Shown: piece after piece, positions 18,275 through 38,182 of the stretch
How positions within the stretch are numbered: position 1 is the stretch's first letter
Layout of the letters: each line of letters opens with the position of its first letter
Source of the DNA: an uncultured Paracoccaceae bacterium
GTDB taxonomy: Bacteria > Pseudomonadota > Alphaproteobacteria > Rhodobacterales > Rhodobacteraceae
DNA length: 64,000 nt
Reading direction: 5' to 3'
Assembly: GCA_951812305.1 (NCBI GenBank)
Contig: CATOSB010000002.1
Span: 62,001-126,000, forward strand
Program-made: the position numbers and the translations under genes
The notes under the pieces: generated by a model
Seen by the model: only the letters and a program-made list of their open reading frames with translations
Told to the model about the DNA's origin: nothing
Databases searched by the model: none

Positions 18275-18616
18275 GTGATGACATCAATCGAACTGAATGA
18301 TTTGCGCAACAAACTCATTGCCATGCGCAACGCTCTGGATGAAGATGACATACTTGGCGAAGAGGCACAAAAAACCGTCAATCTCGACCAGCAATCCGTC
18401 GGTCGGTTGAGCCGGATGGACGCCCTTCAACAACAGGCAATGGCTCGCGCGACCCATGCAAGACGCGATCAGATACGTCAGCGCATTTCAAACGCGCTCG
18501 CTAGATTAGAAGAGGATGAGTTTGGCTATTGCACGGAATGCGGGGAGGACATCCCGATCAAGCGGCTGGAGCTTGATCCGACAGTGCCGACTTGCGTGAA
18601 TTGTGCGCAAGGTTGA
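18275..18616 (+). CDS. DksA/TraR-family zinc-finger protein
   Basis: About 113 residues: a helical hairpin-like N-terminal region (LRNKLIAMRNALDEDDILGEE, RATHARRDQIRQRISNALARL split over segments) followed by a C4 zinc finger, YCTECGEDIPIKRL then PTCVNCAQG. The family binds RNA polymerase through its secondary channel. This is a short version without the longer DksA coiled coil, as in TraR-like proteins. The start may be GTG 18275 or ATG 18278. Its last 59 bases overlap the 3' end of the convergent DUF7742-like gene. Confidence 0.85.
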   Translation: MMTSIELNDLRNKLIAMRNALDEDDILGEEAQKTVNLDQQSVGRLSRMDALQQQAMARATHARRDQIRQRISNALARLEEDEFGYCTECGEDIPIKRLELDPTVPTCVNCAQG

Positions 18617-18881
18617 CCAGCATTTCGAACACCTGTGCCAAACAGGCACAATAATCCCCATCATCAAGAGCAGGTTCGCGCGGCAGAGAATGTTCCATTG
18701 CCGCAGACATTAATGACCCATCGCCCCAATTGGGATGCACCCCACCCGTCTGTTTTCGGTAAGCATCTGCGATCTCCGCCTGCCTAATCAACCGCTCCAA
18801 CGCCACTTGCCGAACAGGCACCGCAAACCGTCTGAGAAAGCGGGCCGCGGCGACCACATCACCGTGCAGAATTGGTCGCAC
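18558..18881 (-). CDS. Small conserved protein downstream of the GTA cluster (DUF7742-like)
   Basis: 107 residues from a GTG at 18881 (RPILHGDVVAAARFLRRF), four bases after the DUF2793 stop. Conserved-looking blocks are HPNWGDGSLMSAAMEH and DDGDYCACLAQVFEMLV, helical and soluble. From memory a similar small gene closes GTA-linked clusters in other Rhodobacterales; its role is unknown. The reading frame extends upstream to 18959, but that part overlaps DUF2793 and is not credible. The last 15 or so residues overlap the convergent zinc-finger gene. Confidence 0.65.
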   Translation of the reverse strand: MRPILHGDVVAAARFLRRFAVPVRQVALERLIRQAEIADAYRKQTGGVHPNWGDGSLMSAAMEHSLPREPALDDGDYCACLAQVFEMLVNLAHNSRKSALSDQAPAA

Positions 18882-18885
18882 TGAT

Positions 18886-19596
18886 CTAAATGCTCGGCAC
18901 GGTCGGCAAATAGTAATGGATCGCCAACCTGATCTCCCCAGCGGCAAAATCCCCGCCATTTGCGGTAATCTCCAAGGGAGTATCCGCCCAATACGTCACC
19001 GATTGACCGGTAACACCAACAAACCAAGTGCCCTGCGCCAAACCGATGTCGTTGGCATAACGGTCCGCAGCACCGGAAACCCCGATATCGAAGCTTGTAA
19101 CCGCGCCGGTAATTGCAGTTTTCACGCGCCCGGTCACCGCAAAGACCACAGCATATTGCGGGATTTCTTCGGTCGTGGTTGAAACACTTTCCGCGCCCAA
19201 TACGTGATCAAACTCCATCACGTCAAAAACCGAGGCCGCCCCATTAGGCGATACGGCCAACGCTGATGCCACCCAATCGGAGCCATCGTAAGTTACCGCC
19301 TTACCGGTATCCGCGACAAACCCGCGCCAGCCCGTTTTTGGTGTCACAAACACCCAGCCCCCGTTTGACCAGATCGCAACGTCACCATTATTGCCGGACC
19401 AGGCATTCACGGCACCCGTTGGCACGGCATAGGTTTCCCCGTCAATTGCCGCCACGGGCGGTGTCTGGGTGTCAGCCGACTGAAATCCAAGCTGCGTCAA
19501 ACCGTCCAGCCTGACCATAGCCTCATTCACAGTGACATGTTTTTGCGCCTGCGCGGCCTGCAGCAAAGGCAGCCCCAATTGCGATGTCTCACTCAT
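18886..19596 (-). CDS. DUF2793 protein, probable GTA tail/receptor-binding accessory
   Basis: 236 residues. The N-terminal half is the DUF2793 signature, beginning ETSQLGLPLLQAAQAQKHVT and continuing NEAMVRLDGLTQLGFQSADT; the C-terminal half is beta-rich and glycine/alanine-rich with ADRYANDIGLAQGTWFVGVT. DUF2793 proteins occur in phage tail regions, and I recall RcGTA using one as a tail-fibre-type protein. Its ATG overlaps the true gp15 stop by 8 bases, so it was translationally coupled to gp15. The frame is open, but the IS5-like insertion in gp15 lies 65 bases upstream and probably affects expression. Confidence 0.75.
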   Translation of the reverse strand: MSETSQLGLPLLQAAQAQKHVTVNEAMVRLDGLTQLGFQSADTQTPPVAAIDGETYAVPTGAVNAWSGNNGDVAIWSNGGWVFVTPKTGWRGFVADTGKAVTYDGSDWVASALAVSPNGAASVFDVMEFDHVLGAESVSTTTEEIPQYAVVFAVTGRVKTAITGAVTSFDIGVSGAADRYANDIGLAQGTWFVGVTGQSVTYWADTPLEITANGGDFAAGEIRLAIHYYLPTVPSI

Positions 19597-19660
19597 TGAT
19601 GGTTATCCTCTTGAATGGCCCGGGCCCAAACCGAACAGAGATCTGGGCCACTTCGATATC

Positions 19661-20853
19661 GGCGCCGTCGGGAAAGTCTTCCGAGGGGCCACTGGCGCTG
19701 TTTCAGCCTTCTGGATTTCAGGTTTTGCCTTTTGGGTTGGAATTTTGTCCTTGTTTTGGCCGAAAATCCGGTTTTTGGGCGGACTCGCCCCGGGGATCAC
19801 GCTGTTACGATCGGGATTTTATCCACGCCAAGCACAACCAGCCGCTTCAGGTTATGTCCAATAGCGGTGCAAGCGACCTGGAACTGTACCTTGGCCTGAC
19901 CACGATAGCGCACCTGTTTCGAGCGCTTTGAAAACACGCGCTCATATGGCGCACGCATCTTGCTGAGCCAGCGATCCTTATCGCGGTTTTTTGCCGCCAT
20001 ATTGTTCTTCTTGATGACCGCGCTGTGACATCCTTTGCGTTTGAGTTCCCTCTGTGCAGGTGCAGTGCAATAGCCTTTGTCTGCATAAACAGCACCCTGA
20101 TCCGGGCACACATGGCGCAGACCTTTGGCATCATCGACATTGGCCGGTGTGGCCGCCACTTTGTTGACCAGACCTGATTGCATGTCCACGCTGGCATGTT
20201 CCTTGTAGCCATACCAATATTTGTTTTTGTTCTTTGCGCCAAAACGCGCTTGCTTGTCGGCAGCAACCCTGGGAGCGGTTTCGTTGTTGAACTTCTCCAG
20301 ACCCTTGGCGATGGCTTTGTCCCGATCACTCCAGTTCGAGAATTTCGAAACCAGCTGGCTGGCATCCACAAAGGTGAACACTTCCCGGATCAAACCTGCA
20401 GCCTTCAAGCTGACGCGCAGACGATTGAAAATGTCCATGAGCCCCTTTGTACCCAACCGCTTGCGGAAATCGCCGAAAAACGAGTGATCAGGTGTCTTCT
20501 CACTGAGCCCAAAGCCGCAAAACCATTTGGCTGCAAGGTTCTCACGCATGAACCGTTCCATCTCCCGATCGGAAATGTCCTCAAGGAATTGAAGCACCAG
20601 CATGCGAAACGCACGCCCGGCACCCAATTCAGGGCGCCCGCGATCAGAATAAAGCGCTGCCGGAGGCTTTGCCAAAGCACACAGGTCAACAACCGCTTCA
20701 AACTTGCGGTACGGATGATCAGCCAACACAAGCCCATCCAACGTTGCAAACATTTCAATCTGATCACGCTTCATAGCCAGCCACCCCAAAAAATACTCAC
20801 GCAGACTGAATCAATTCATCACAGTCCTGTCCAGAGACTTTTCCGACAGGGCC
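19661..20853 (-). mobile_element. IS5-like insertion sequence (about 1193 bp) in gp15
   Basis: The ends are imperfect inverted repeats: GGCCCTGTCGGAAAAGTCT at the transposase 5' side (plus-strand end 20853) and GGCGCCGTCGGGAAAGTCT at 19661, 16 of 19 identical. Flanks carry a 5-bp direct repeat, ATATC on the plus strand, at 19656-19660 and 20854-20858. Excision with one repeat restores gp15. The 5-bp duplication is not the classic 4 bp of IS5, so the subgroup is uncertain. Confidence 0.85.
19797..20774 (-). CDS. IS5-like transposase
   Basis: About 325 residues. N-terminal IS5-type domain with RPELGAGRAFRMLVLQFLED and MRENLAAKWFCGFGLSEKTP; the DDE core reads FVDASQLVSK, AVYADKGYCT and RAPYERVFSKRSKQVRYRG, with the last glutamate as the third acidic residue. 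The frame is complete, so the element may be active. I chose ATG 20774 (MKRDQIEMF) over the ATG five codons upstream. It lies wholly inside the IS bounded by the inverted repeats. Confidence 0.9.
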   Translation of the reverse strand: MKRDQIEMFATLDGLVLADHPYRKFEAVVDLCALAKPPAALYSDRGRPELGAGRAFRMLVLQFLEDISDREMERFMRENLAAKWFCGFGLSEKTPDHSFFGDFRKRLGTKGLMDIFNRLRVSLKAAGLIREVFTFVDASQLVSKFSNWSDRDKAIAKGLEKFNNETAPRVAADKQARFGAKNKNKYWYGYKEHASVDMQSGLVNKVAATPANVDDAKGLRHVCPDQGAVYADKGYCTAPAQRELKRKGCHSAVIKKNNMAAKNRDKDRWLSKMRAPYERVFSKRSKQVRYRGQAKVQFQVACTAIGHNLKRLVVLGVDKIPIVTA

Positions 20854-23800
20854 ATATCAAACGGCACAACGATGGCGTCATTCGCCACATCTTCGGCGGA
20901 ATAGAAGAAATCGGTGCCGCCGGTCGTTTCCTCGCGCACCAAACTGCCATCCTTGATCACCCGCAAAAGATAGCTCTCGTTATCCTCGCCAAGCGGCACT
21001 TCAACAGACTGCCAACTGTCCCCGTCTATCCGGGTGCGGCGAATCCATGTGATGTTGTAGTTGTCGCCAATGTCCTTTTCCGCCCGCAGGTGCGCCGGCG
21101 AGTACGGACGTAATCCGATGCCGTCAAATGCTTCGATCAGGTGCGTGTAGGATGGATCGTCAAAGCTGCGCTGTGCAGGTCCAATTCGATAATGGCGGGT
21201 GAGTCCACGCGCTGAAGCATCAAGGTCGATCTGCCGCATCGATCCGTCCAAAATGACAACCGTCGAGCCAACCGGCCAGTCATCCGGCATGATCCCGTCC
21301 GTCCCAAGCTGCCCACGCAACCGACCGATAATGTCGTATGTTCGCTCCGCGATGAGGTTTGCATCCGCGAATTGAAAGATTTCCCAATTTCCCGGGGTAC
21401 CGTCACCAATGGCGGCCACATTTGCGCCGTTTAGCACCGCATCAAGCGAGGCGGATGATAATTGTCCGTTCGCAAATTCGACCCGTAAGTCCCCGCCACG
21501 GTCCACTACACCGGGCATTGCGCGGAACAGCGTTGTTCGCGTCAAACCAACAGTGGCCGGAGCCGTCAGAAGCTTATTCAGTTCATATCCATCGTCCGAA
21601 GACGAGGAAAACACCGCTACCGAACCGGGCCAAGGTCGCGCGGTTGCGGCAACAAATGGTGCGTGTGGCACTTCATCGCCTGTCAGCAGCGGTAGATCCA
21701 GAAAGTATGGCGCGACCGGAACCGGCGCCACAAACGGGCGTTGCGTCACAGTTTCTTCAACGGCATCGCTGGGTTCATAAATCTCCGATTCAACTCTGAC
21801 AGCTTCGATAACCTGCATGCCCGATTGTTCAACGCGATCAATGCGATATGACCCGTCGACTCCGTCACCGGGAATGGTCACGACATCTCCGGCGCCCAAC
21901 CGCAGGTCACTCAGCGGCAATGCGAATTGGGCAACATCCCTTGCAACACGCGCCTCGCTCAGCCACCGCTCGACAATGCCCTTGGCCTCTGCGTGGGTCA
22001 GCACCAGTGGCAATTCCGATTGGGAAACCGTATTCGTCGCTTCGTCCGGAAAAATCGCCTCTTCAGCCAAAACAGCATAGTCACCTTCGGCTTCAATGAA
22101 ATTCAGGCGCACCCGACCAGCCATTTCCGCTTCAGGCGCGCGTGTCAGCTGCAAATCTCCGTCTTCGGCATCGATCACTGCCAAGCGCTCGGCATCAATT
22201 TCGCCAGAGGTCCGTCCATCGCGGGACCGAAAGATAAGTTTCCCGTTACGCTCAATGACATCAAATCCGAAGGCCAGCATCAGCGGCTGAAGCGTGGCTC
22301 TTCCGGTATCGTCTCCGGTCGCGGCAAACCCACGAACCACACCCCAAAGTTCCGAAACATCGTAGTCTGAAATGCCCGCCAATTCACAGATCTCGGCCAC
22401 AACTCCAGCAAGGCTTCGATTGCCGCCACGACCATTCAGCCAATGCCCGCGCAGATAGTTTTCACCGTCGCTCCAAAGCTCAGAATTCCCGGGAAAATTC
22501 GGAAACGGTCGCGCATCCCAAGCCCAGGCATGAGCTTTCTCCAAATCGATCATCGGCCCGCCATATATGTCGGACACCGGGTTCTTTTCACCATCCTCCC
22601 AAAAGCTCATCATCGCGCGCAAATACTGCGATTGGATGAAGTCATCCCTGCGACCGCTTGAAAAATATGGCAAATCCGACTCCGACGATTTCGGATCGAG
22701 AAATTTGTTGGGCTGATTGGTTCCCTTATCAATCGCCGCGCAACCAAATTCCGTGAACCAAATCGGCTTGGACTGCGGTTCCCAATCTGTTGGCGTCTCG
22801 TCTCGAATCCCACCCACACGATTGTGGTGGTCGTTCAGCCACCAATTCCGCAAATCTTTGTATCGATAAACCCAAGGTTCGCCATACGCCCCATCCGAGA
22901 TCGGTTCGCGCAATTGCAGCTCACGCGACGAAGCGTTTACGTAATACCAGTCGTACCCTTCGCCGCCCTCGATATTGGCCTGAAGGTATTCGGAATTATA
23001 GATTGACCCCCAATCGGCATCCGCATGATCATCACCGTCACGCCAATCCGAAATCGGCATGTAATTGTCGACACCGACAAAATCTACATTCGCATCGCCC
23101 CACAGCGGATCTAAGTGAAAGAAAACATCGCCGGACCCGTCCTGCGGATGATAACCGAAATATTCCGACCAGTCCGCAGCATAACCGATCTTGGTTTGCG
23201 GCCCCAGTATTGAACGGACATCCTGCGCTAAAGTCCGCAGTGCATCCACTGCCGGAAAACTGTTATTTGCCCCGCGAATTTGCGTTAGGCTGCGCATCTC
23301 CGAACCGATGCAAAACGCGTCGATCCCGCCGGCCAGCGCACATAAATGCGCATAATGCAGGACCATCCGCCTGTAAGACCATTCCGCTGGGCCCGAGTAA
23401 CCAACGCTGTCAACGCCGGGTACAAAGTCGCTTACACCGGCACTGCCAAAGAAAGCCGATACTTCTGTATCCGCCGCCGCCGTCTGGTCCGGGCTGCCCG
23501 CCTGCCCCGGCGCTTTTGATAAAGTTATCCGCCCTCGCCACGGCAGTTCCGGCTGGTCATCGGCCCCCGTCCACGGGTCCTCCTGCCCGTTGCCGGCCAG
23601 CTGCTCCATCAGGATGAAGGGATAAAACGACACCGCCTGCCCCGCCACTTTCAGCGCGACAATTGCCTCGATGACCGATTGATCCGTCGGCGTCCCACCA
23701 TAAATCGGACGATCATCGACCTGCGCAATCTCGTCTGCCTGGCTTCGGGTAAGCCCCGAAACCGTCCAAGGCATCCCGACCCCATCGCCGAGTTTGTGCT

Positions 23801-24706
23801 CCACCTTCGGCTTCAAATCACACAAGCCGCACCGCAGATCATTGCCGAACCAACTGACCACGACCATCGTCGACTTGCTGTTCGGCAGTTCTGCCGCAAG
23901 ACCGTCCAGCGAGGTCAGAAGATCGGTTTTTCCCCCCGGCGCACTTACATTCGCAGCCGTATTCTGCCCCAGCCCACCGTTGTAGTGGACCGGAGTCGTG
24001 GCCAGCGCGTACTCACCGGTTCCCGGAATCAACGCAACTCCTTTTACGAGTTTCGCAACATCCTCTTGTGGCAACGCCAATCCATCCGGCGCAGGCCGAA
24101 CAACCTCGAAAGTCAATTGCGGAATTCGGTTCCCGGACGGCCCAAGTTCGAAATCCTCGAACACCACATAGGCAAGGCAGCGATAAGCCGGAACTTCCCC
24201 GATTCCCTCAACCGCCTCGATTTTTGGATCAGGCAACTGGTCACCGGTGCCGCGATAAACGCGCATATTCACCAGGTTCAGATCAAGCGGTTGTCCATCC
24301 GCCCAGACGCGCAGGACGCCGCTGATTTCGCCCTCACACAGCGCGACGGCAAAACTTACACAATAGGAAAACTCTCGTGTCTTGGGCCGCGGCGGCGCGC
24401 CTTTGCCACCACCACTTTCGGAAACCTTTTCAAGGTACCTAGTCGCCCAAATCACCTGTCCGGGAACGCGCATCCGACCGAATACACTGCCAATATCGGC
24501 ACCTTCGCTCGCACCTGTCAGCCGAAAGCGATCCAGTATTCCGGTCTCAATCGGTTCCGCGCCCTGTCCAAGGATTCGATTGTCAATAACCCGACCGATC
24601 GTCGCTCCAATTGCACGGCCCAATACCCCGGTGGACAACCCCAGAACGGAACCACCAATTGCATTGCCAGCCGTCAATCCGACGGCGGAAAGAACAATCG
24701 TTGCCA

Positions 24707-25153
24707 TCAGCTTTCCTTTTCTGGAAATTCAAACCGCCCCACGACCCGACGCCGCCAGGGGTCGGACAAAGCGCTTTCGATCACACCATGACGCGTATAC
24801 GCGTGGACGAATCGCGCCTCAGATCCTGCAACCGAAATCAGGCCCAGATGCTTCGCAACCCCTGCATCCCGCATCCTGAACAACACAACATCACCGGGCA
24901 ATTCCTCGCGGTCATCGACCGGCGCCAAGTGCCGCCTCGCAGCCCGCCAAAGCCGCTCGTTTTTAGATGCCTCGCTCCAGTCTGGCGTGTAGGCCGGAAC
25001 CGCCTCTGGCTCTTGTCCATAAAGCGCACGCCAAATGCCGCGCAGCAGGCCCAGACAATCGCAGCCGGAATTCTTCGCAGACGCCTGATGCACATATGGC
25101 GTCCCCAGCCAACTACGCGCTTCGGCAACCGCTGCTTCTGCGATCCCGCTCAT
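24707..25153 (-). CDS. GTA gp14, NlpC/P60-type cell-wall peptidase
   Basis: 148-residue peptidase of the NlpC/P60 superfamily. Motifs: ARSWLGTPYVHQASAKNSGC followed by DCLGLLRGIW with the catalytic cysteine, and AKHLGLISVAGSEARFVHAY with the catalytic histidine. In RcGTA the homologue sits at the tail tip and is thought to cleave peptidoglycan of recipient cells. It is coupled at both ends: ATGA with gp13 upstream and TGATG with gp15 downstream. The frame is intact, although both neighbours are interrupted by IS elements. Confidence 0.9.
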   Translation of the reverse strand: MSGIAEAAVAEARSWLGTPYVHQASAKNSGCDCLGLLRGIWRALYGQEPEAVPAYTPDWSEASKNERLWRAARRHLAPVDDREELPGDVVLFRMRDAGVAKHLGLISVAGSEARFVHAYTRHGVIESALSDPWRRRVVGRFEFPEKES

Positions 25154-25626: not shown

Positions 25627-26795
25627 TACCAAGGGTGCTTCAAAATGACTCAGCTATGGATTTTGGGTACCGCCTGAGGTGCTGAGGTGATTCAAGATTG
25701 GCAAAGGAGACCACCGATGCCAGCCAGGATACCGATGCGAGCCGATTTTACCGCCAATGATCTGCGCAAGCTTGCCGCAGAGAGTTCTGATGCCCGGCAG
25801 AGCCGACGGCTTTTGTCGCTTGCCGCTATCGCCGATGGCATGTCGCGTGGGGCTGCGGCCCGCATTGGCGGGATGGACCGGCAAACGCTCAGGGACTGGG
25901 TGCTCCGTTTCAACGCTGATGGTCCAGCGGGGCTGCTGGATCGGCAGCGAGGAGGCTCGCGATCCCGCCTTGACAATGCGCAACTGGATGAACTGGCGGC
26001 TCTTGTCGAGACCGGTCCTGATCCTGAAAAGGACGGTGTCGTCCGCTGGCGGCGGGTCGATTTGAAGAATGTGATCAAGGCGCGTTTTGGCGTCGACTAT
26101 CACGAGCGCCATGTGGGGCAGATTCTGCACAATCTGGGCTTTTCCCACATCAGCGCACGCCCTCAGCACCCGGGGCAGGACGTGCAGGTCATTGAGGATT
26201 TCAAAAAAACTTCGGCGACAATCTGAAGGAGACGCTTCAGGGGGTGCCGCCGGACAAACCCGTCGAAATCTGGTTCCAGGACGAGATGCGTCTCGGTCAG
26301 AAGAACACCCGCGTCCGCCAGTGGGCACGCAAGGGCACACGGCCCCGCCAGCCCGCCGATCAGCGTTACCAAAATGCGTATCTTTTTGGCGCCATCTGCC
26401 CCGAACGCGGCACCGGCGCGGCGATCATGATGCCAGCAGCCGACACCTATGCGATGCAGCGCCACCTGGAAGAAATCAGCAAAATTGTCTCCGATGGCGC
26501 CCACGCCGTCATCCTCATGGACCAAGCCGGCTGGCACACGACATCCGCTCTGGAAATCCCGCAAAACCTGTCGCTCATGTTTCTGCCGCCCAAATCACCA
26601 GAGCTGAATCCAACCGAAAACATTTGGCAATATCTCCGCCAGACATGGCTCGCAAACCGGACGTTCGACACATATGACGCGATTCTCGACGCGGGGTGCG
26701 AGGCCTGGAACAACCTCATCGCAAGACCGCAAACCATCACATCCATCGCAAGCCGCAACTGGGCGAAAGTCGGTCAGATTGAATAACCCTTGGTA
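25627..26795 (+). mobile_element. IS630-family element, copy 2 (type A, 1169 bp)
   Basis: Same element as at 3338-4506 but in inverse orientation; all readable frames are identical. Terminal repeats are TACCAAGGGT; the target duplication reads TAA at 25624-25626 and 26796-26798. It interrupts gp13. Intact host frames at both copies show that no inversion between them has occurred since insertion. Confidence 0.94.
25717..26786 (+). CDS. IS630-family transposase, -1 frameshift fusion (copy 2)
   Basis: Same two-frame organisation as copy 1. The first frame starts at ATG 25717 (AAAGGAGACCACCG upstream) and ends at the TGA at 26224-26226. A run of seven A at about 26203-26209 allows a -1 slip into the DDE frame, which ends at 26786. 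The slip yields FKKNFGDNLKETLQG, then PPDKPVEIWFQDE, restoring the family pattern. The product would be about 355 residues. Without the slip only the DNA-binding half is made, which could act as an inhibitor. Confidence 0.86.
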
Positions 26796-27208
26796 TAACG
26801 CCTCCGCAAGCCCGCGCAGCTCGGCACGAAACGCACCCCCAGACCGTGTGATTTCGCCAAGATGGCCGCGAAACAAAAGCGCGCGGTGTGCCGGCATTTC
26901 CCAATTCACAAGATAGGCCAGCACTTCAGCCCCATCAAACTTCCCGGCGTGAATATCCACTTCATTGATGGCCGCGTCTGTCAGCATCCCCAAGGCTTCA
27001 CTGTTATCAACCGAAAGCCCCGTGCCTTGCTGGATCGCTTGCGCCGACAATCCGGTATCTGCGCGCAGCGGAACGCCGTTCAAATCAAAGTCCCGGTCAT
27101 GATCCGTAAACCCCAACACAAGGCCATCATTACGTGTCACGACCCAGGCGCGGCATACATTCGTTGTGCCAGATTTCAGATGCGCCTCCAGTTCCGCCGA
27201 CACCGCCA

Positions 27209-29471: not shown

Positions 29472-29669
29472 TTACCGTCAAAGATCAGCCCCTCGAATGA
29501 TTTTCGCAACCCGCGGCTGATACCGCTCGACAAGACCCGAACCTCCCGGTTCGTGTCGCTGACCGTTTCACGCATCCGCGACATTTCACCAGCAAAGGCG
29601 CGCGCCATATCCCCGGCAGACCCAAGGCTCTGGCGCACATCTTCGACGCCATCGCCGAAATCATCCAGC

Positions 29670-29864
29670 TCATCCATCCGATCTCTCTCCATCACTGTCC
29701 GGGTATGCCGCCGCCAGCTCTTCCAACCTTGCCCGATTCAATGGCCCCTGCCCGCTTTCGCGTCCAAGCATCACCATCAGTTCCAAAGGGGTCAGCCGCC
29801 AGAACTCTTCCGGCCGCAAATTCGCCCCCCGCAACCCGGCGCGGATCAGCCCCGGCCAATCCAC
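29670..29864 (-). CDS. GTA gp10.1, small tail assembly chaperone-like protein
   Basis: 64 residues from a GTG at 29864 (DWPGLIRAGLRGANLRPEEF), one base after the gp10 stop. The sequence RLTPLELMVMLGRESGQG is the typical core of the small tail-assembly-chaperone family encoded here in Rhodobacterales GTAs. The open frame extends to 30005, but that part lies inside gp10. The 3' end overlaps the gp11 start by 26 bases. The frame is intact. Confidence 0.8.
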   Translation of the reverse strand: MDWPGLIRAGLRGANLRPEEFWRLTPLELMVMLGRESGQGPLNRARLEELAAAYPDSDGERSDG

Positions 29865-29865
29865 C

Positions 29866-30186
29866 TCAGTCCCTTTCTGGAAACGCGAACGCGCGCGCCA
29901 AAAGCTGGCCGGCGGCTTTCGCCGCCGCCACCGGACCGCCTTCGATAACTGCTGACAAAAGGCTCGCGCGATCCCCGCGCCAGCCGCCGCCGCGCAATCC
30001 GGCAATGATCAGCGCCAGAACATCCCGTGTCGACACCTCTTCACGCTCAAACCGCTCGATCAGCGAAACCAACGTGTCCGCCTCAAGCTCTGCTTCCAGT
30101 TCAGCCAACGCCCCACGCGTCAGCTTCATCACATGGGGCTCCCCATCGATGACCAGCGTCACCTCGCCCGCCCACGGATTGCTCAT
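29866..30186 (-). CDS. GTA gp10, tail assembly chaperone family
   Basis: 106 residues of the GTA TAC family: NPWAGEVTLVIDGEPHVMKL then TRGALAELEAELEADTLVSL, with a helical C terminus ending LARAFAFPERD. In tailed phages this position, between tail tube and tape measure, encodes the chaperone that coats the tape measure, usually as a frameshift pair; here two separate coupled genes (gp10, gp10.1) fill it. It starts one base after the gp9 stop. Intact. Confidence 0.85.
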   Translation of the reverse strand: MSNPWAGEVTLVIDGEPHVMKLTRGALAELEAELEADTLVSLIERFEREEVSTRDVLALIIAGLRGGGWRGDRASLLSAVIEGGPVAAAKAAGQLLARAFAFPERD

Positions 30187-30187: not shown

Positions 30188-30601
30188 CTAAAGCGCCGTA
30201 AAGGTCAGTTCGCCCGCGGACGCCATGCTCAACTCATAAGTCGCCTCGCCATTGAAATTCCCCGCATACTCGACCGACGTAATCTGAAACGGTCCCTCCA
30301 CAGTCCCGAAGTCCGGAATGATCACCTGAAACAGTGGCGTCTGGCTTTCAAAGAAAATGTCCCGCGCGCGCTCATCCGTCGCCTCATCGCGGAAAATGCC
30401 GGAGCCGGTGATCGACGCCGATTTCACACCGGCACCGCCGAGCAGCTCGCGCCAACCACCCTGGCTCTCCAGGCTGGTGACATCCACGCTTTCCGCGTTG
30501 AATGAAATCCGCGACGCCCTCAGCCCCGCAATCGTTTCGAACTGAGAGGCTCCGGTCATGTCGAGCTTTATCAGCAGGTCCTTGCCGTTCTGGGCACCCA
30601 T
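30188..30601 (-). CDS. GTA gp9, major tail protein
   Basis: 137 residues, the tail-tube subunit. Recognisable blocks: GKDLLIKLDMTGASQFETIA, SFNAESVDVTSLESQGGWRE and the C-terminal GNFNGEATYELSMASAGELT, as in the TP901-1-type major tail family used by GTAs. The protein polymerises on the tape measure to form the short non-contractile tail. Intact; 25 bases separate it from gp8. Confidence 0.9.
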   Translation of the reverse strand: MGAQNGKDLLIKLDMTGASQFETIAGLRASRISFNAESVDVTSLESQGGWRELLGGAGVKSASITGSGIFRDEATDERARDIFFESQTPLFQVIIPDFGTVEGPFQITSVEYAGNFNGEATYELSMASAGELTFTAL

Positions 30602-30626: not shown

Positions 30627-31037
30627 TCAGTCGTCTTCGACAAGCGCCCGAAAGCGCAAATCGATTTGTCTCAATGTACTCTTTGCAACCCGGCGCGCGT
30701 TTGCGCGCAAAAAGCTCAATCCGATCAGCCGCCCGCGTTCCAGAACCAGCGGCGCATCGACCAACGCGTCCGATACAGCAGCCGCAGCGTCCTTCGCCGC
30801 CAGAAACCCGTCCGCATCAGTAACCACGCTGACAGTGAAGTCATGCCAGGCACCACCTTGCAGGCCGTCGGAACGGTTTCGAACCGCTTCCTCGCCCAAA
30901 GTCACATAAAGGCCGGGCACACTGCCCGACGGCGCAACATCATAGATGTCACTGCCCACCAACGCGATCAGCGCTGCATCTGTTTCCAACCGCGCGAAAA
31001 CCGCCTTCTGCAACGCCGGAGAAACCCCATAACTCAT
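30627..31037 (-). CDS. GTA gp8, tail terminator (DUF3168)
   Basis: 136 residues with the DUF3168 pattern: ALQKAVFARLETDAALIALV, SVPGLYVTLGEEAVRNRSDG, HDFTVSVVTDADGFLAAKDA. In RcGTA it caps the head-proximal end of the tail tube. The start overlaps the gp7 stop by four bases (ATGA). Intact. Confidence 0.88.
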   Translation of the reverse strand: MSYGVSPALQKAVFARLETDAALIALVGSDIYDVAPSGSVPGLYVTLGEEAVRNRSDGLQGGAWHDFTVSVVTDADGFLAAKDAAAAVSDALVDAPLVLERGRLIGLSFLRANARRVAKSTLRQIDLRFRALVEDD

Positions 31038-31372
31038 GTGGCCACCTCCTCAATGACGTAGCAGACGAGATACCGCATCTCGGCATCCAGATCGGCCACC
31101 GCCAGAATCTCGAACTCACGGTTTCCTTCGCGAAACCGCTGCCCAGCGCGCGGACGGCTCGGCGCGCCATCCGGCGCAGACCGAACGGTAATCCGATAAT
31201 TGGCCTTGGATATGTTCAACTCGCCGATTTCAGAGTCGTTCCCTGTCCTGGGCTTCACCTCAGCCCACAGAACCCCCTCGACCTGCCAGTTCGTGACATG
31301 CCCGCCCGCATCGTCCCTCGTCCGGTATGGTGCCAGCAATTGCAACCGCCGGTTCAGCTTTGGCGCGTTCAT
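31034..31372 (-). CDS. GTA gp7, head-closure (stopper) protein
   Basis: 112 residues of the phage head-tail joining family: LNRRLQLLAPYRTRDDAGGH, WAEVKPRTGNDSEIGELNIS, YRITVRSAPDGAPSRPRAGQ. It closes the connector below the portal and adaptor after packaging. It is coupled by four-base overlaps to gp6 upstream and gp8 downstream. Intact. Confidence 0.88.
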   Translation of the reverse strand: MNAPKLNRRLQLLAPYRTRDDAGGHVTNWQVEGVLWAEVKPRTGNDSEIGELNISKANYRITVRSAPDGAPSRPRAGQRFREGNREFEILAVADLDAEMRYLVCYVIEEVAT

Positions 31373-31968
31373 TTCGCGCCCTCGCCGAACAGCCGTACCG
31401 TGCGGTAACGATCTATCAGCAGGCTGACACCAAACGGCATCGCCACCTCCCCCGCCGCCATCGCGCTGCGGTTCTCATAGTAATGCGCCGCCAGCAGAAA
31501 CACCGCCTGCCCCAGATCCGGTGGCAGGTCGCCCCACAGCGCCCCATAGCCCGCATCAAAATGCACCTCGACCTGGCCATGCGGCGGTATCACTGGCAAT
31601 TGCGAAGACACCGACACGATCCTTGGCCGATGCGCATCCGGCTCCAGCCGATAGACATCCGGCGACACGACTGTTTCGTTGCCGTCCTTGTCGATAATCC
31701 GAACCTCGGTGATCGCCGCAACCGGTGCCACCGGCAAAGACTGACGCGCCAGGTCGCGCCAACTCGTCAGCGTCCAACTGAAACTACGCGCCAAAAGCAC
31801 CTTGCCGGTCCGCGCCTCAATCGCCGCAAGCGACGCCCTAAGGTAACTCTCCAGAACAGCATCCTGCACCCCGTCGTCGGCAAACCCGGTTCCCAGCCGC
31901 AGGTGATCCTTGAATTCCGTAACCGGCAGTGATTCAGTCGCCACTGTGGTTTGCTCAACTAACATCAT
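31369..31968 (-). CDS. GTA gp6, head-tail adaptor
   Basis: 199 residues with the gp6-like head-tail connector pattern: FKDHLRLGTGFADDGVQDAV, LESYLRASLAAIEARTGKVL and, near the C terminus, LLAAHYYENRSAMAAGEVAM followed by FGVSLLIDRYR. It binds the portal ring. A GGAG ribosome site precedes the ATG. A terminator-like hairpin with six T lies about 14-36 bases upstream, between it and the capsid gene. Intact. Confidence 0.88.
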   Translation of the reverse strand: MMLVEQTTVATESLPVTEFKDHLRLGTGFADDGVQDAVLESYLRASLAAIEARTGKVLLARSFSWTLTSWRDLARQSLPVAPVAAITEVRIIDKDGNETVVSPDVYRLEPDAHRPRIVSVSSQLPVIPPHGQVEVHFDAGYGALWGDLPPDLGQAVFLLAAHYYENRSAMAAGEVAMPFGVSLLIDRYRTVRLFGEGAK

Positions 31969-32114: not shown

Positions 32115-33188
32115 ATTCTCGAGCCCAAAGATCAGACCGAGAACTTCAGCACTTTGATCGCGTTGAAGTCGCTGACATCGCCGCCCACGCGCTTGGACGC
32201 GTAAAACATCACATGCGGCTTTGCGCTGAATGGATCACGCAGAATGCGCAGGTCCGGGCGTTCCGCAATGGTGTAACCTGCAGCGAAATCACCGAAAGCA
32301 ACCGACAGGCTGCCGGTCGCAACGTCCGGCATGTCCTCGGCAACCAGCACCGGATAACCCATCAGACGGCTCGGCTCACCAGCCGCAAGGCTGTCGGTCC
32401 AAATAAACCGGCCATCAGCATCCTTGATCTTGCGCACCTGACCAACGGTCTTGGAGTTCATCACGAAACTCGCATTGGCGCGATATTCCGAACCCAGTGC
32501 AAAAACCAGATCGACCAGCGCATCAGCGGGATCGACCGCCGCAAACGCCCCGTCAACACCGGTCGTCACATGACCCAGCTCGCCCCAAATCTCTGTGCCT
32601 GCAGCAACGGTTGTGTGGGTCAAGAACCCAACCGGCTTGTCAACGCCATCACCGTTGATGAAGGCCCCTGCCTCGGCGCCTGCGAACTTCTCCGCAATGC
32701 GCCCAGCCAGCCAGCTTTCGACATCAAACGCACTATCATCGAGCAAGCGCTGCGAAATCTTCGGCATCGCCGACAATTCATGCAGCGGGATCGAGATGCG
32801 CTCGATATTCGGCGTTGCGGTTTCCGCCGCCGTCGCCGTCTCGGTCGCCCAGCCTGCGCCGGTCTCCGTGGTGTCAATCAGAACGTCGTAAGCTGCCGCC
32901 TCAACATTCACGACATTGGCCACCTGTCGCAACGACGCGGTCGACACCAGCGCCGATTGAATCGTCGCCGAAGTCTCGGGATCAACCAGATATCCGCCAT
33001 CACCGGCAACGGCCGTATTCATCGCCTTGCCTTCCAGATCCAGCCCGCGCAGCGCGTCGTCATCGCCTGAGCGCACATAGGCCTCAAACGCTTTCTGATG
33101 CGGGGCCTCTGCCTCTGCAGCCGCCGCAAGTGCCGGGCGCGCCCGGGTCAAAGATTTCCGATCAAGCATCATAAGTCGCTCTTCCTGC

Positions 33189-34378
33189 CTTACCACCCTT
33201 CAAAATTTCCGGATCTGATTTGACGTTTGTCTGATCTGTGTGATTCAAGGAGTCTCCACTGCTGATATTGGAGGCTGGTTTGTTGGGAAATGTTTGTTTT
33301 TCAGAGCTTTATTCGAAGGTTGAGGCGGATTTTCAGGACCGCTTGCTCGGGTATCACAAGTCGCGCCGGGAGGGATTGTGCATCATAGCAAGCGTGATTT
33401 TGAACACGCGCAGCGTCAATCTGATGGAAAATGCGGCTGCTCTGCCCCGCGATATCGGCTCTGTGGACCACCGCTATCAATACATTTCGCGGGTTCTGGG
33501 CAATCCTCACATCGATACTGATGAGATCATGCAGGCCTATGTTGGTGAAATTTTCCGCCGCCAGTGTGAGGCCGGAGAAACGATTGTGGTGGCCCTTGAT
33601 CAAAGCAAGCTCAACGAAGGGCATGAGGTTTTGATGTTATCGGTGCGGATGCGGGATCGGGCCCTCCCGGTCGCCTGGCGTGTACGCCAGACCAAAGGGC
33701 CGATTGGATGGCGCGTGCAACATGAGCTTTTGGAAGCAGTCCGCCCATGGCTCCCGGCGGATGCGCGTGTGTTGCTGGCGGGAGATCGGTTTTATGGAAC
33801 CGCCCGATTGGTCGCATGGTGCCAGGAGGCTGGATGGGACTACCGGCTGCGCATGAAGGGAAATATCACACTGCAACATCAGGGTGGCGAGATGATGACG
33901 CGCGAAATTGCCCAACTGATGCCCGAAGGGCTTGTAAACGCTGAGCTTTACGGAACGGGCGTCTTTAGCAACATTGGAGTGCTTCACGAGGAGGGGCACA
34001 AAGAGCCTTGGATTATTGCCATGAATGCAGCACCGTCCGAGTACAAGGTGCTCGATTATGGAATGCGTTGGGGAATTGAAGCCATGTTCTCCGACTTCAA
34101 AACCCGGGGCTTTGAAATTACTCAAAGCCAGATCAAAAAGCCGGATCGATTGGCCCGCCTCATTTTGGTGCTGGCAATCGCCATGTACTGGGCTGTTTCA
34201 ACCGGAGCAAACGAAGAGCACCACGTCGCAATACGCGGCGAAAAAAGGGGATTCGAAAAGCCCGAAGGTCCTTATGCTCTCTCTTCAAGACAGGCCTTCG
34301 TGCTATCCGACGATGCCTCGCAGGTTATGCCAAAATCCCCAAGCTCTGGGATGTCTGGCTAAATTGAAGGGTGGTAAG
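33189..34378 (+). mobile_element. IS4-family insertion sequence (1190 bp) in the GTA capsid gene
   Basis: Inverted repeats CTTACCACCCTTCAA at both ends. Target duplication CTCTTCCTGC (10 bp) at 33179-33188 and 34379-34388. The transposase carries the full IS4 YREK signature. The duplication is perfect, so insertion is recent. Confidence 0.95.
33268..34362 (+). CDS. IS4-family transposase
   Basis: About 364 residues, TTG start at 33268. DDE-type: VVALDQSKLNEGHEVLMLSV (first Asp), ARVLLAGDRFYGTARL (second Asp), and YGMRWGIEAMFSDFK, a perfect Y-(2)-R-(3)-E-(6)-K signature with the catalytic Glu. The C terminus ends just before the right repeat. The frame is complete and the element may be mobile. 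Transcribed opposite to the capsid gene. Confidence 0.92.
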   Translation: MEAGLLGNVCFSELYSKVEADFQDRLLGYHKSRREGLCIIASVILNTRSVNLMENAAALPRDIGSVDHRYQYISRVLGNPHIDTDEIMQAYVGEIFRRQCEAGETIVVALDQSKLNEGHEVLMLSVRMRDRALPVAWRVRQTKGPIGWRVQHELLEAVRPWLPADARVLLAGDRFYGTARLVAWCQEAGWDYRLRMKGNITLQHQGGEMMTREIAQLMPEGLVNAELYGTGVFSNIGVLHEEGHKEPWIIAMNAAPSEYKVLDYGMRWGIEAMFSDFKTRGFEITQSQIKKPDRLARLILVLAIAMYWAVSTGANEEHHVAIRGEKRGFEKPEGPYALSSRQAFVLSDDASQVMPKSPSSGMSG

Positions 34379-34564
34379 CTCTTCCTGCTGTTGAAATTTC
34401 GTCGTCATCTCGTCCTGGAAATCTCCCAGGTCCGTCAAAAGCCCGGCCAGCGCGGTTTTCACCTCTTCCGCCGGGCTTGCAGCTTCAGGCACAGTTGTAC
34501 CGGCCCGAGCCTTGGTCTCGGTTTCACTCATCCAATTCTCCTTAGATGGTTTGCCTTTGCTGGC

Positions 34565-35137
34565 TCAGGCTTTGGCCAGCGACCGGCGGGCATCCTCAAT
34601 GGTTGCCGCCAGTTCTCTGAGCAGGTCGTCCTCCGCCACGGGGCTTTCGCCCTTGGCCCCGACCCGCGCATCCGGAAGCATCGGGAATGTCACCAGCGAC
34701 ACTTCCCAAAGCTCCAGCTCCGACAAAAGCCGCTGGCCCCTGTCATTCTTCCGGGCTTTCACTGTGCGATACCCGATCGACAATCCGTCAATCGCGCCCG
34801 CCTCGATCAAGGCCATCGCCTCGCGCCCCTTTTCCACGTCGCCAAGGATGCGGCCTTTCACGTAAAGCCCCTTTTCATCCTCGCGCACCTCGTCCCAAAC
34901 CCCAATCGGCTGGCCCGGATCATGCTGCCACAGCATTTTGACCGACCGCTTCGCGGCGCCTAGCGCCTTCAGCGAGCGTCCGTAAGCGCCCGCCTCGACC
35001 ACATCGCCGCCCTGATCGCTTTTGCCAAAGAGCGACGCATAACCGGAAATCTCCGCCCCGTCGGTCACCGAAATCTCATCGCCCAACCGACAAAACTTTC
35101 TCTCCAGCCCGCTCACCAAATCTTCATACATTCGCAA
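34565..35137 (-). CDS. GTA gp4, prohead protease
   Basis: 190 residues (188 if the second ATG is used) of the HK97-type prohead protease family. Core blocks: ISGYASLFGKSDQGGDVVEA, KMLWQHDPGQPIGVWDEVRE with the family histidine, and GLSIGYRTVKARKNDRGQRL with the serine, followed by LWEVSLVTFPMLPDARV. It trims the capsid N-terminal domain during maturation. Intact, between two broken genes; no separate gp3.5 was seen in the 45 bases upstream. Confidence 0.92.
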   Translation of the reverse strand: MRMYEDLVSGLERKFCRLGDEISVTDGAEISGYASLFGKSDQGGDVVEAGAYGRSLKALGAAKRSVKMLWQHDPGQPIGVWDEVREDEKGLYVKGRILGDVEKGREAMALIEAGAIDGLSIGYRTVKARKNDRGQRLLSELELWEVSLVTFPMLPDARVGAKGESPVAEDDLLRELAATIEDARRSLAKA

Positions 35138-35182
35138 TACCTCTCCAAGTAAGCGAGACTCGCACGTAAGAGCGAGACGAGC

Positions 35183-36364
35183 TTATTCCCCTTCATCCGC
35201 AATTTTCGGCAAACCCAGCAACGCCCGCTTCTCCGCATCCGTCAAAAACGCCGCCTCGGCCACGCGCTTCCATTGCTGATCCCGCTCAACCGCCAGCGCC
35301 GGCACCTGATCCAGATCCGGCCTCAGCTCCACCGCATCCCCGGCCAGTTCACTCAACCAATGCGCAACCGATGCCGTCACTCTTGTGGCCAGCGGCAACA
35401 CTGTCAGACGATAAAACGCCCGGTTTGCTTCGGCGTAATTGGCGTACGTCGCGTCTCCCGGTATTCCCAGCAACATCGGCGGCACCCCAAAAGCCTGCGC
35501 GATCTCCCGCGCCGCCGCCTCCTTGGTTTTCTGAAATTCCATGTCAGAGGGCGAAAAGCCCATCTGTTTCCAGTCCAACCCGCCTTCCAACAACATCGGG
35601 CGCCCGGCATTTGCCGCCCCCGTATGATGGCTCTCCATCTCGCTCAACAACCGGTCCTACTGATCCGCCGCCAGCGTCCCCTGCCCGTCGGACCCCTTGT
35701 AAACAATCGCTCCCGAGGGGCGCGCGGCGTTGTCCAACAAGGCCTTCGACCAACGCGACGCCGAATTATGCACGTCCAGCGCCGCCGCCGCCGCCTGCAT
35801 CGGTGAAAAGCCATAATGATCGTCTTGCGGGTGGAACGATTTGATATGGCAGATCGGCGAGAAATCCTCGCTCACCCTGAACCGGTGCTTCTTGCCGCCC
35901 ACCGCATATTCAAACGCCACAGGCCAGCCATCCGACCCCGGCACAACGCTCATCCGATCCGACCGCAACACATGCAACTCCACCGGCAACCCGGTCTCAG
36001 CGCCCACCGCCTCCAGATACCCGTTCCCGCTCAACAACAACTGCGCGAAAAGCGCCTCGAACAACTCCGCCCGCCCCTGAACGCCATTCGGGCGCGCGAT
36101 CAGCGACAGCACCGGATGCACCTCATAGCGCCGCTCGGCATCCTGACACACCAGCGGCAACGCCGCCGCGGCTTCCGCAATCAGTTTGACCGACCGAAAT
36201 CCCACGGGATTGCACGAAAACCCCTGCCGCGTCAGCGAAACCGTGTCCCGCGGCGTCCAGGCCACACGCCCACCTGTCTGCCACGCCACGACGCGACCTG
36301 TGGCAGAGGCCTTTGCCTCCGGCATTTCCGCAGCCGCTCCGCCACGCTTCAGAAAATCAAACAT
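35183..36364 (-). pseudogene. GTA gp3, portal protein, with an in-frame amber codon
   Basis: HK97-family portal, 394 codons long. The 5' 235 codons hold GFSCNPVGFRSVKLIAEAAA, YLEAVGAETGLPVELHVLRS and HYGFSPMQAAAAALDVHNSA. A TAG at 35657-35659 follows GTLAADQ; the frame then continues without shift as DRLLSEMESHHTGAANAGRP, LLEGGLDWKQMGFSPSDMEF and on to the stop at 35183. Homologues normally have an aromatic or charged residue at this position, so a single substitution from TAC, TAT or AAG would explain it. The truncated product lacks the C-terminal portal domain; re-initiation at the following ATGs is possible but would not give a working portal. Confidence 0.88.
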
Positions 36365-36400
36365 TTGGCAAAGCTCCTATCCTGCGCTCATCCCGTCGAA

Positions 36401-36442
36401 TTGACCCCTGCGCCGTGCACGTCGCACCGACGCAGGGGTCAA
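36401..36442. other. Long perfect hairpin between GTA gp2 and gp3
   Basis: TTGACCCCTGCG (36401-36412) and its exact complement (36431-36442) flank a second small stem, GTGC-ACGTC-GCAC. Twelve perfect pairs plus an inner stem make a strong extended hairpin in the ~200-base gap between terminase and portal. No T tract follows on either strand. It could be an RNA structure, a protein-binding palindrome or a palindromic repeat element. Confidence 0.6.
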
Positions 36443-36561
36443 AAAGCAGACCCCGCCGCCAAGCAGATCCGCCGCCGAAATGGGAAGCCGCGACGCCAAT
36501 CGCCCCGCTGGCAACCGACCCCGCACCATCACGGCTCCAAAACTTTCGTGTAATTTGCCGC

Positions 36562-37977
36562 CTAGCCTAGCGACCGTATCTGCGGCCGCCGGAAACTCGC
36601 GGCCGGGGCAATCATCAAATCAAACATCGCCCAGACCAGCGCATCCACACGGTCCGGCGACCCTTTGCCTTCGAACCCCCGCACGGTCATAAGGCACATC
36701 TGTTCTTCCAACTCGGACAATCCACGAACATGGCGCACCCGCCCCTGTTCATAGAGTGCTGCAACCGGTTCCGCCCTTGCCGCTTTACCACGCGACGCCC
36801 TGACCGCGCGATAGGCGACCAACGGATCGACTTGACGCAATACCTCTTCGACCAGCTCGCCGCCCTGATTGACCTCAGCCACGAGCCGATCCGCGCTCCA
36901 ACGATCCCGCGCCGAAATCGCTGCCTCTGCCCAGACCATCGGCGACCCGGCAACGCTCACGTCTTCCAGAACGACAGCGCGCCAATCCTGCGGCGGACCC
37001 TGCGTCACCGCACCAACCACCACGATTCCGCATGCGTCCGATTTCGGGCCACTCGTCACCGGCGGGTCAACCGCCACAACGACCCGGTCAAACTGCGGCA
37101 CGTCTTCAGTTCGCGCTGCTTCCAGAATGCGGGTCGACCAAAGCGCCCCTTCGGCATCCTCCATCAGAACGCCGTCGAGTTCCTGCCGACCGAGCCGCGT
37201 TCCCGCATACCGCGCCCGCACCTCTTCAAGAAACGACTGTGCCAGATAGGCCCGGTTCGCTTCCGTCGGCGCCTGTGTTGTCACCGTCGAAGGCGATTTC
37301 AAAATCGTCTTCAGAACACCGACATTCTTCGGCGTCGTCGTCACCACCTGCCGCGGCTCCTCGCCCAGCCGCAACGCGAATTGCAACATGTCCCAGGCCT
37401 CCTCGGCCTTCTTCCATTTTGCGACTTCATCCAGCCATGCGGCGTCAAATTGCGGCCCGCGCAACCCTTCCGGTTCATGTGCCGAAAAACATTGCGCCAC
37501 TGCGCCGTTCGGCCAAACCAGCCGCCGCCGCGTCGCTTCCCATCTCGGCACGCGGTCGGGTGGCGAACAAGCCATGATCCCGCTTTCACCGAACACCATT
37601 ACATCGCGAACCTGATCAAAGGTCTCGCCAACAAGCGCCACGCGCTTGGACCGCCCCGGCGTCAACGGCAGATTGCCTTCAACTTCGGACCTGACCCATT
37701 CCGCGCCAGCGCGTGTCTTCCCGGCTCCGCGCCCGCCCATAATCACCCAGGTCCGCCAACCGTCCGCTTTCGGCGGCAACTGGTGCGGCAGCGCCCAGAA
37801 CTCGAACATATAGGGCAGCGCCATAAGCGCACCCGGACTCAAATCATCCAGAAACGCTTTAGACACCTCCAGCCCGGCGGAGACAATCCAGTCGACGTCC
37901 AATCTCGTCCCGTGCCCGTTCGAAGTCGATGGCATAGGTTCCGACGATTCCTTGATCTTTTCGGAGTGCTTCAACAA
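36562..37977 (-). CDS. GTA gp2, large terminase subunit
   Basis: Packaging ATPase/nuclease, up to 471 residues (457 from the ATG at 37935). ATPase part: Walker A VIMGGRGAGKTRAGAEWVRS, RVALVGETFDQVRDVMVFGE, Walker B-like GPQFDAAWLDEVAKWK. Nuclease part: RVVVAVDPPVTSGPKSDACG with the acidic residues, and later SADRLVAEVNQGGELVEEVL. It drives headful packaging of host DNA. The first codons overlap gp1 in another frame, so the exact start is uncertain. Intact. Confidence 0.93.
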   Translation of the reverse strand: MLKHSEKIKESSEPMPSTSNGHGTRLDVDWIVSAGLEVSKAFLDDLSPGALMALPYMFEFWALPHQLPPKADGWRTWVIMGGRGAGKTRAGAEWVRSEVEGNLPLTPGRSKRVALVGETFDQVRDVMVFGESGIMACSPPDRVPRWEATRRRLVWPNGAVAQCFSAHEPEGLRGPQFDAAWLDEVAKWKKAEEAWDMLQFALRLGEEPRQVVTTTPKNVGVLKTILKSPSTVTTQAPTEANRAYLAQSFLEEVRARYAGTRLGRQELDGVLMEDAEGALWSTRILEAARTEDVPQFDRVVVAVDPPVTSGPKSDACGIVVVGAVTQGPPQDWRAVVLEDVSVAGSPMVWAEAAISARDRWSADRLVAEVNQGGELVEEVLRQVDPLVAYRAVRASRGKAARAEPVAALYEQGRVRHVRGLSELEEQMCLMTVRGFEGKGSPDRVDALVWAMFDLMIAPAASFRRPQIRSLG

Positions 37978-38182
37978 CGCGCAACCTTTCCCTCGATGCC
38001 ATCTGCCAGGCTGCAGTCATATCTGCGACCGCCGCTTTTAGCCCCTTGGCTTCGAAATCATCCTGCTTAACTTGCAGCAGTTTCTGACCGAGCACCGACC
38101 CGGCCTGCTCAAACAACTGCTCTGCAATGGCGAGGTTTTCGTCATCGCCCAAACCGTCCCCGGTCAGCGTAATCAATGCCAT
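37859..38182 (-). CDS. GTA gp1, small terminase/adaptor-like
   Basis: 107 residues from ATG 38182 (MALITLTGDGLGDDENLAIA), mostly helical with ADMTAAWQMASRERLRVVEA and YAIDFERARDEIGRRL. This is the expected size of gp1, which in RcGTA acts as the small terminase. The open frame extends to 38269, but that extension contains the terminator-like hairpin of the leader. It overlaps the gp2 start by up to 119 bases. First gene of the GTA transcript. Confidence 0.82.
   Translation of the reverse strand: MALITLTGDGLGDDENLAIAEQLFEQAGSVLGQKLLQVKQDDFEAKGLKAAVADMTAAWQMASRERLRVVEALRKDQGIVGTYAIDFERARDEIGRRLDCLRRAGGV

Follow-up and report, generated by a model that had tools for sequence, protein, structure and literature searches.

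Insertion sequences interrupt both an RcGTA-type gene transfer agent cluster and comEC in an uncultured Paracoccaceae genome

Analysis of a stretch of 64,000 nucleotides from an uncultured Paracoccaceae bacterium (assembly GCA_951812305.1, contig CATOSB010000002.1, positions 62001–126000 of 1.37 Mb; hereafter the window) reveals a gene cluster of the type that encodes RcGTA, the gene transfer agent (GTA) of Rhodobacter capsulatus, in which five genes are broken. The source genome comprises 7.18 Mb in 39 contigs and is 98.9% complete, with 5.6% contamination. This cluster, and a comEC gene located elsewhere, are the only ones of their kind found in the assembly, and both are interrupted by insertion sequences (IS). 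It is thus likely that the making as well as the receiving of GTAs has been lost, probably in a recent IS expansion during which selection gave these genes no protection.

The head-tail cluster is complete and follows the canonical gp1–gp15 order on a single strand, the minus strand, from 38182 to 18558, as judged from Pfam and Protein Data Bank (PDB) matches and from relatives, including a sister genome, that of Candidatus Rhodobacter lobularis from the sponge Oscarella lobularis (label L004), and a further relative, L005. A preliminary description of this DNA had listed all RcGTA-type structural genes as present in order, with a different insertion in each of the capsid, tape measure, hub and tail-tip genes and an amber codon in the portal gene, and all five lesions are indeed there. 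IS borders were defined by alignment to copies elsewhere in the genome and by target-site duplications (TSD); genes and gene pieces below are on the minus strand. The portal gene gp3 (35183–36364) contains an in-frame TAG (35657–35659, minus strand) between two halves that both match PF04860 (Phage_portal, profile positions 2–167 and 180–321), the first half also matching the RcGTA portal Rcc01684. The capsid gene gp5 is divided into an N-terminal piece of 51 codons (34379–34531) and a C-terminal piece (32132–33188) by ISd, an IS4-type element of 1190 bp (33189–34378, plus strand; TSD CTCTTCCTGC) with a DDE_Tnp_1 transposase, and the entire C-terminal capsid domain stays open (PF05065; RcGTA capsid Rcc01687, E=3.7e-169). 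The tape measure gene gp11 carries ISc, an IS630-type element of 1169 bp (28303–29471, minus strand; TSD TTA) with a DDE_3 transposase, between an N-terminal piece (29472–29677) with a homolog in L005 and a C-terminal piece (27852–28302) that is 71% and 81% identical to the sister and L005, respectively, and matches a tape-measure chain (PDB 25vf, E=6.4e-8). The hub gene gp13 is split into pieces matching PF09931 and RcGTA chain 6tba_7A (26796–27209) and PF09356 (25150–25626) by ISb, a second IS630-type element of 1169 bp (25627–26795, plus strand; TSD TAA) with helix-turn-helix (HTH) domains. Finally, ISa, of the IS5/IS1182 type (1193 bp, 19661–20853, minus strand; TSD ATATC; DUF772 and DDE_Tnp_1), separates the bulk of the tail-tip or megatron gene gp15 (20854–24707; PF13547, PF13550 and PF23666; RcGTA 6tba_8A, E=0) from its detached last codons (19590–19660), removing only about 24 codons, a length judged from relatives.

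Since gp15 loses only about 24 codons and gp5 keeps its capsid domain, the clearest losses of function concern the portal, tape measure and hub, which presumably cannot be made whole, so that particles would not be made. The statement that any single lesion blocks particle formation went too far, as this is not shown for gp15 and is inferred for the other genes.

A chance origin of the inserts is excluded by the TSDs and by the many near-identical copies of each IS in the genome. Scoring 40 first-look candidates per IS gave lower bounds for the near-identical matches, some of them fragments: at least 41 for ISc (~100% identity), at least 41 for ISb, at least 42 for ISd and at least 22 for ISa, which has the fewest and for which 10 matches span essentially the whole query and about half are fragments. 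ISb and ISc are different elements. ISc shows the DDE_3 and HTH domains and the short TA-containing duplication of the IS630 type, in the form TNA; ISb shows the HTH part and a TNA duplication, while its second open reading frame (ORF, 26087–26677), possibly not the right frame, has no Pfam match. The ISb transposase is split across two frames at an A7 run, and as this split is kept in identical copies (19 of 19 full-length ones), the protein is probably made by programmed frameshifting. Elements of the IS4 type duplicate 9–12 bp of target, and ISd combines DDE_Tnp_1 with a TSD of 10 bp in gp5 and 9 bp in comEC; a perfect 10-bp duplication, the only length tested, flanks 8 of 20 surveyed ISd copies. 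The family names that go beyond Pfam (IS4-like, IS5/IS1182-like) are those to which we take these elements to belong.

Together with dprA, comEC is a gene of the DNA uptake pathway. In the genome only two partial comEC matches were obtained, at G000:C4; they are open on both sides and split by an ISd copy (G000:C4:339309-340498) that is 99.9% identical to the one in gp5 and has its own TSD, GCGCAGCCG. A second comEC was not found in the assembly, and ComEC is probably non-functional. Beginning about 0.8 kb after the comEC match, three more ISd copies stand in a row (8432–12000 of stretch L232, in which the comEC ISd occupies 5309–6498). The DprA, ComM and ComF families have one match each in the genome: ComM and ComF are 83% and 69% identical to the sister and free of stops, and DprA (67% identity) has an open frame of 384 codons, its alignment showing two stops only within the first ~35 aligned residues, ahead of the likely start. 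The separate release genes of RcGTA-type systems are also present, an endolysin and a GTA holin (PF05838/PF09374 and PF11351) being open at about 510.4–511.5 kb of G000:C4 with 81% identity to the sister.

These data bear on the idea of a cheater lineage, which would have dropped the lysis cost of production and still receive DNA from producing neighbours. Cheaters are offered as one possibility for pseudogenized GTA clusters in the parts of PMC10883770 available to us, this paper and PMC6209664 being cited from excerpts throughout, and the open dprA, comM, comF and cysE genes would fit such a life. According to both papers, however, DNA carried by GTAs requires ComEC to enter the cell, and the only comEC found is split by an IS though dprA, comM and comF are open; production is likely lost, and reception does not appear to have been kept. 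The broken comEC thus speaks against a cheater still receiving DNA and for a loss of the whole exchange pathway, and we regard the cheater explanation as improbable.

The comparison with relatives, which the preliminary description had proposed as a check, was made with the 80 relatives that ranked best among 443 capsid matches; such a set does not represent lineages that lack a capsid gene, and not every relative has every gene. The tests of the portal, gp11 and gp13 sites counted only relatives in which both gene halves were found. The GTA genes are open at the lesion sites in the sister, for which the genome paper reports a GTA cluster (PMC4559732), in L005 and in nearly all readable relatives. 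The portal site reads through in 77 of 78 relatives, the 78th (L032) failing only because its second half ends naturally, at query position 155 of 157. The gp11 site is open in 66/66 and the gp13 site in 71/73; gp5 is open upstream of the insertion site in 80/80, and gp15 continues for 20–27 codons in 67 of 69, not counting three in which the contig ends first. At the DNA level, none of the four IS is matched in the 80 relatives or in the 1.2 Mb of sister sequence compared. As the relatives are open at these sites, the break is derived in the present lineage. Some relatives show apparent lesions of their own: gp2 of L056 and gp6 of L031 each contain a stop, gp13 has a frame break in both L061 and L083, the latter showing another in gp15, and gp15 ends early in L076. 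Draft errors may account for some of these. Flagged stops in L011, L032, L034 and L044 lie within the last four query codons and look like natural ends.

We further analyzed whether genes as conserved as the GTA were struck by IS as often. ORFs from 60 sister stretches and from the sister GTA locus, chosen by similarity, were compared with the window and with a sample of the genome (50 stretches of 20 kb taken at fixed steps on eight contigs); IS events include truncations at IS borders, and part-aligned genes (16 rows) count only where the missing part is accounted for by an IS border. At ≥60% identity, 2 IS events are found in 142 non-GTA genes (141.8 kb) and 4 in 11.8 kb of GTA genes (P=4.5e-4), a wider border rule giving 3 control events (P=9.9e-4). 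At ≥65% identity the control retains 0 or 1 event in 126 genes covering 128.7 kb (P=4.9e-5 or 2.3e-4). Per kb, the GTA is struck 16 to 24 times as often as equally conserved genes. When all the production and uptake genes examined are considered, 5 of 24 are broken by IS, against 2 or 3 of the 142 controls (Fisher P=7e-4 or 1.8e-3). Because equally conserved genes are nearly untouched, these results support the view that the GTA took insertions like unconstrained DNA and that selection no longer protected it, in line with the original proposal that selection had stopped maintaining the system. We infer that relaxed selection, rather than a benefit, let the insertions fix.

The sampled DNA also indicates how heavily the genome as a whole is loaded. 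It contains 144 repeat elements of 23 families, covering 17.0% of bases, families present only once in the sample being missed. Eighteen families carry transposase or transposon domains (128 elements, 15.0% of bases, 2.56 per 20-kb stretch); the remainder are three families without a Pfam match (R5, R13, R21) and two phage-tail repeats (R17, R18). In the sister, a short-read assembly, repeats of any kind make up 0.95% of 1.2 Mb (60 stretches). Four or more elements occur in 15 of the 50 stretches when only transposase-bearing ones are counted and in 20 of 50 with all repeats. A stricter count of all repeats, sliding within stretches, reaches four or more at 12 of 252 placements, a sign of mild local clustering. 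A genome-wide IS load has also struck the GTA, and the GTA was not singled out. Neither the GTA as an IS hotspot nor the earlier use of its multiple lesions as GTA-specific evidence finds support, given a hit density near the genome average of 2.6 elements per 20 kb.

These figures raise the possibility that IS strike everything at random and that the GTA is simply part of an evenly degenerating genome. In favour of such bystander decay, besides the average hit density, 16 of 59 copies of the four IS lie inside genes according to a conservative caller, which found only 2 of the 4 GTA insertions; the window also contains a split serine hydroxymethyltransferase (SHMT)-like gene, and in one sampled stretch, L136, IS have struck two or three conserved genes. 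The 16- to 24-fold lower density of hits in genes as conserved as the GTA argues against it, since fixation is uneven across genes, and we consider even degeneration of this kind unlikely, if slightly less so than a cheater lineage. Stretch L136 (G000:C2:1300001-1320000) contains 7 elements, its hit genes are two or three neighbouring orthologs of sister stretch L207, and it may be a second conserved cluster in decay.

Several points weigh against a loss of the exchange genes through withdrawn protection. The four IS in the GTA compare with 2.2 expected in its 14.6 kb of native sequence (P=0.18), or with 2.5 expected insertions when all repeats are used (P=0.25). The contrast with conserved genes depends on the identity threshold: lowering it to 55% brings 6 control events in 152.1 kb (P=0.0043), and raising it to 70% leaves a single GTA event (P=0.054). 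All control events at 60% fall in the one IS-dense stretch L136, and the test is post hoc, the locus having been picked for being broken. Of the 7 pathway genes examined outside the cluster, comEC alone is broken (Fisher P=0.14), so that this hit, taken by itself, could be due to chance. Moreover, the evidence comes from one assembly, and the nearest portal protein among the matches listed is 89% identical (~5.8 billion sequences, 8000 candidates scored).

An error of assembly or a mixed bin could also be invoked for the insertions or the stop, in view of the 39 contigs, the repeat-rich genome and a contamination of 5.59%. On the other hand, each insertion has its own TSD, a feature not produced by misassembly, the open GTA genes are free of frameshifts, and no intact second GTA copy is present in the bin; an artefact is therefore very unlikely, the least probable of the explanations considered. 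The preliminary description would have been contradicted by an additional complete cluster elsewhere, and none was found in the assembly, where the terminase and the GTA TIM-barrel each occur once. The search for an intact second GTA yielded only two further capsid matches, 30–34% identical to gp5. These are HK97-type capsid genes (G000:C2:854708-855706 and G000:C1:382049-382978), possibly of prophages, and lie outside any GTA cluster as far as the searches show.

The age of the loss can be estimated from the lesions themselves. In 13,863 bases of GTA coding sequence there is one nonsense codon and no frameshift, from which the nonsense codon gives a neutral divergence of about 0.2% since constraint ended (0.18–0.25% under six mutation models, with intervals from ~0.005% to 1.4%). 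In the window and the sampled DNA, the 19 full-length ISb copies show no difference along their 1169 bp and the 17 full-length ISd copies differ by 0–2 bases, IS identity being a sign of age that gene conversion or assembly polishing may inflate. With a single nonsense codon, no frameshift in 13.9 kb and identical IS copies, the loss is recent, as had been proposed. The other suggested approach, dN/dS across the open GTA genes, was only partly informative. The pairwise values of about 0.14 to each of the two nearest relatives show long-term constraint, and thus that purifying selection acted on the GTA for most of the history of the lineage; the loss cannot be dated in this way, as synonymous sites are near saturation (dS ~1.5, pS 0.65), and dN/dS was dropped for this purpose in favour of the nonsense-codon estimate.

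Taken together, the data most probably reflect a genome-wide IS expansion in this relative of a sponge symbiont, during which the GTA-exchange genes, no longer needed, were unprotected by selection. Four IS and one stop codon would have ended particle production, and the ISd copy in comEC would have ended uptake. As to why selection relaxed, the sponge-associated sister leads us to a guess, by analogy with what has been proposed for other IS-laden symbionts, that the cause may be a host-restricted life. In a different scenario, which follows the framework of PMC4774983 as set out in an excerpt of that paper, the IS would have won an intragenomic conflict: by breaking the GTA and ComEC they would have ended chromosomal curing, i.e. 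the overwriting of IS insertions by GTA-borne clean alleles, and would then have reached about one seventh of the genome. We hold this conflict to be doubtful, about on a par with bystander decay. The order of events, exchange loss versus IS expansion, is not established by the data, and this applies to the conflict scenario too.

The genes that escaped insertion complete the picture of the cluster. Pfam recognizes the terminase, portal, prohead protease, capsid, connector, head and tail completion proteins, tail tube, GTA-gp10 and tail chaperone, and in the distal part the distal tail protein, hub, peptidase, tail-tip protein and DUF2793 fibre; solved RcGTA chains (PDB 6tba and related entries) are matched by the portal, capsid, distal tail, hub and tail-tip proteins. 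The gp numbers rest on a comparison with RcGTA, whose numbering we in part assume. The genes gp1, gp2, gp4, gp6–gp10.1, gp12 and gp14 are open, as described before, and so is the DUF2793 gene. In the small terminase position, gp1 (37862–38182) is assigned from position and relatives only, with homologs at the same place in the sister and L005 and neither a Pfam nor a significant PDB match; gp11 is assigned from relatives and the one tape-measure match, its N- and C-terminal pieces having no Pfam match. The remaining open genes, all on the minus strand, are gp2 (large terminase, 36562–37977; PF03237/PF17289, 75% identity to the sister), gp4 (prohead protease, 34565–35137; PF04586), gp6 (head-tail connector, 31369–31968; PF05135), gp7 (head completion, 31034–31372; PF05521), gp8 (tail completion, 30627–31037; PF11367), gp9 (tail tube, 30188–30601; PF06199), gp10 (29866–30186; PF11836 'GTA-gp10'), gp10.1 (tail assembly chaperone, 29670–29864; PF09550), gp12 (distal tail protein, 27209–27871; PF09343, RcGTA Rcc01695, E=4e-97) and gp14 (NlpC/P60 peptidase, 24707–25153; PF00877). 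They are followed by the DUF2793 gene (18886–19596; PF10983), whose product is the RcGTA tail fibre according to PMC10883770, and by a DUF7742 gene, likewise open (18558–18959; PF24891).

The flanks are chromosomal, with YceG and a beta-ketoacyl synthase upstream and, in the cysE1 position downstream, an open serine acetyltransferase gene (17374–18381, minus strand; PF06426). This arrangement is the same as in R. capsulatus, where cysE1 lies downstream of RcGTA (excerpt of PMC9552610). Thus the locus has the gene set and order of the RcGTA type on one strand, and its neighbours are yceG and cysE1 rather than phage modules, integrase and replication genes not having been specifically searched for; as gp3, gp5, gp11, gp13 and gp15, which belong to the essential structural genes, are broken, it is classed from its sequence as a decayed RcGTA-type cluster and not as an active GTA. 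In the window no tRNA was found and no Rfam family reached its gathering score.

Other IS copies were noted on the way. A second ISb copy (window 3338–4506) splits the SHMT-like gene, whose ORFs 2505–3359 and 4490–5071 match PF00464 positions 21–232 and 231–399. A copy of R0, the commonest repeat of the sampled DNA (1517 bp, with an IS66-type transposase; present 44 times in the window and sample together), lies at 54407–55923 between a PqiA-like ORF and another ORF. Adjacent near-identical pairs were seen twice for R0 and once for ISb, at G000:C2:42001-62000 (162–3195 of this stretch), C2:146001-166000 (12603–15636 of this stretch) and G000:C8:665544-667888, which suggests insertion beside the element's own end or circle-type transposition.

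What maintains GTAs is an open question. In the excerpts cited here, modelling finds that the losses from GTA transfer exceed the gains (PMC6209664), and decayed clusters are read as those of cheaters (PMC10883770). The present genome amounts to a natural transposon-mutagenesis experiment, in which young IS copies reveal the genes that are still protected, and with donor and recipient halves both freshly broken it offers a direct test of the cheater idea. Together with the sponge-associated sister it forms a clean pair for asking what shift in lifestyle renders GTAs dispensable, and whether IS can expand because exchange is lost. Should the doubtful conflict scenario be true, GTAs would be kept in other Rhodobacterales partly as purgers of mobile elements, and their long-debated benefit would gain a concrete, testable form.

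Pseudogenized and lost GTAs have already been noted in several lineages (excerpt of PMC10883770), so that GTA pseudogenization is in print and the present case is recent and well resolved but ordinary in kind; no published case was found in which a GTA and comEC are jointly broken by an IS burst, in a search covering mostly titles and the beginnings of abstracts, outside subscription papers. Compared with RcGTA itself (R. capsulatus, PDB 6tba), the cluster has the same gp1–gp15 set and order, with yceG upstream and cysE downstream, but five of its genes are broken and it reads as a decaying copy rather than a producing system. The pseudogenized alphaproteobacterial clusters of PMC10883770 likewise have inactivated genes where the cluster is otherwise conserved; whereas the excerpt explains these by cheaters, or by niches in which costs exceed benefits, here comEC is broken too and the cause, an IS expansion, is visible. 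IS expansion with pseudogenes, as seen here, is also described for the coral Ruegeria MC10 (excerpt of PMC13313319), in a paper whose main text does not use the term gene transfer agent. In Piscirickettsia salmonis, as here, transposable elements interrupt comEC but leave dprA and comM intact; GTAs are unmentioned in the abstract and outline of that paper (PMC12955456, cited from these parts). Finally, the competence-gene-disrupting mobile elements of PMC4774983, whose main text does not mention gene transfer agents, share with the present ISd copy a position inside a host gene for DNA import, but the examples in the excerpt are prophages and a resistance-gene cassette or island, whereas here the element is an ordinary IS with many other sites.

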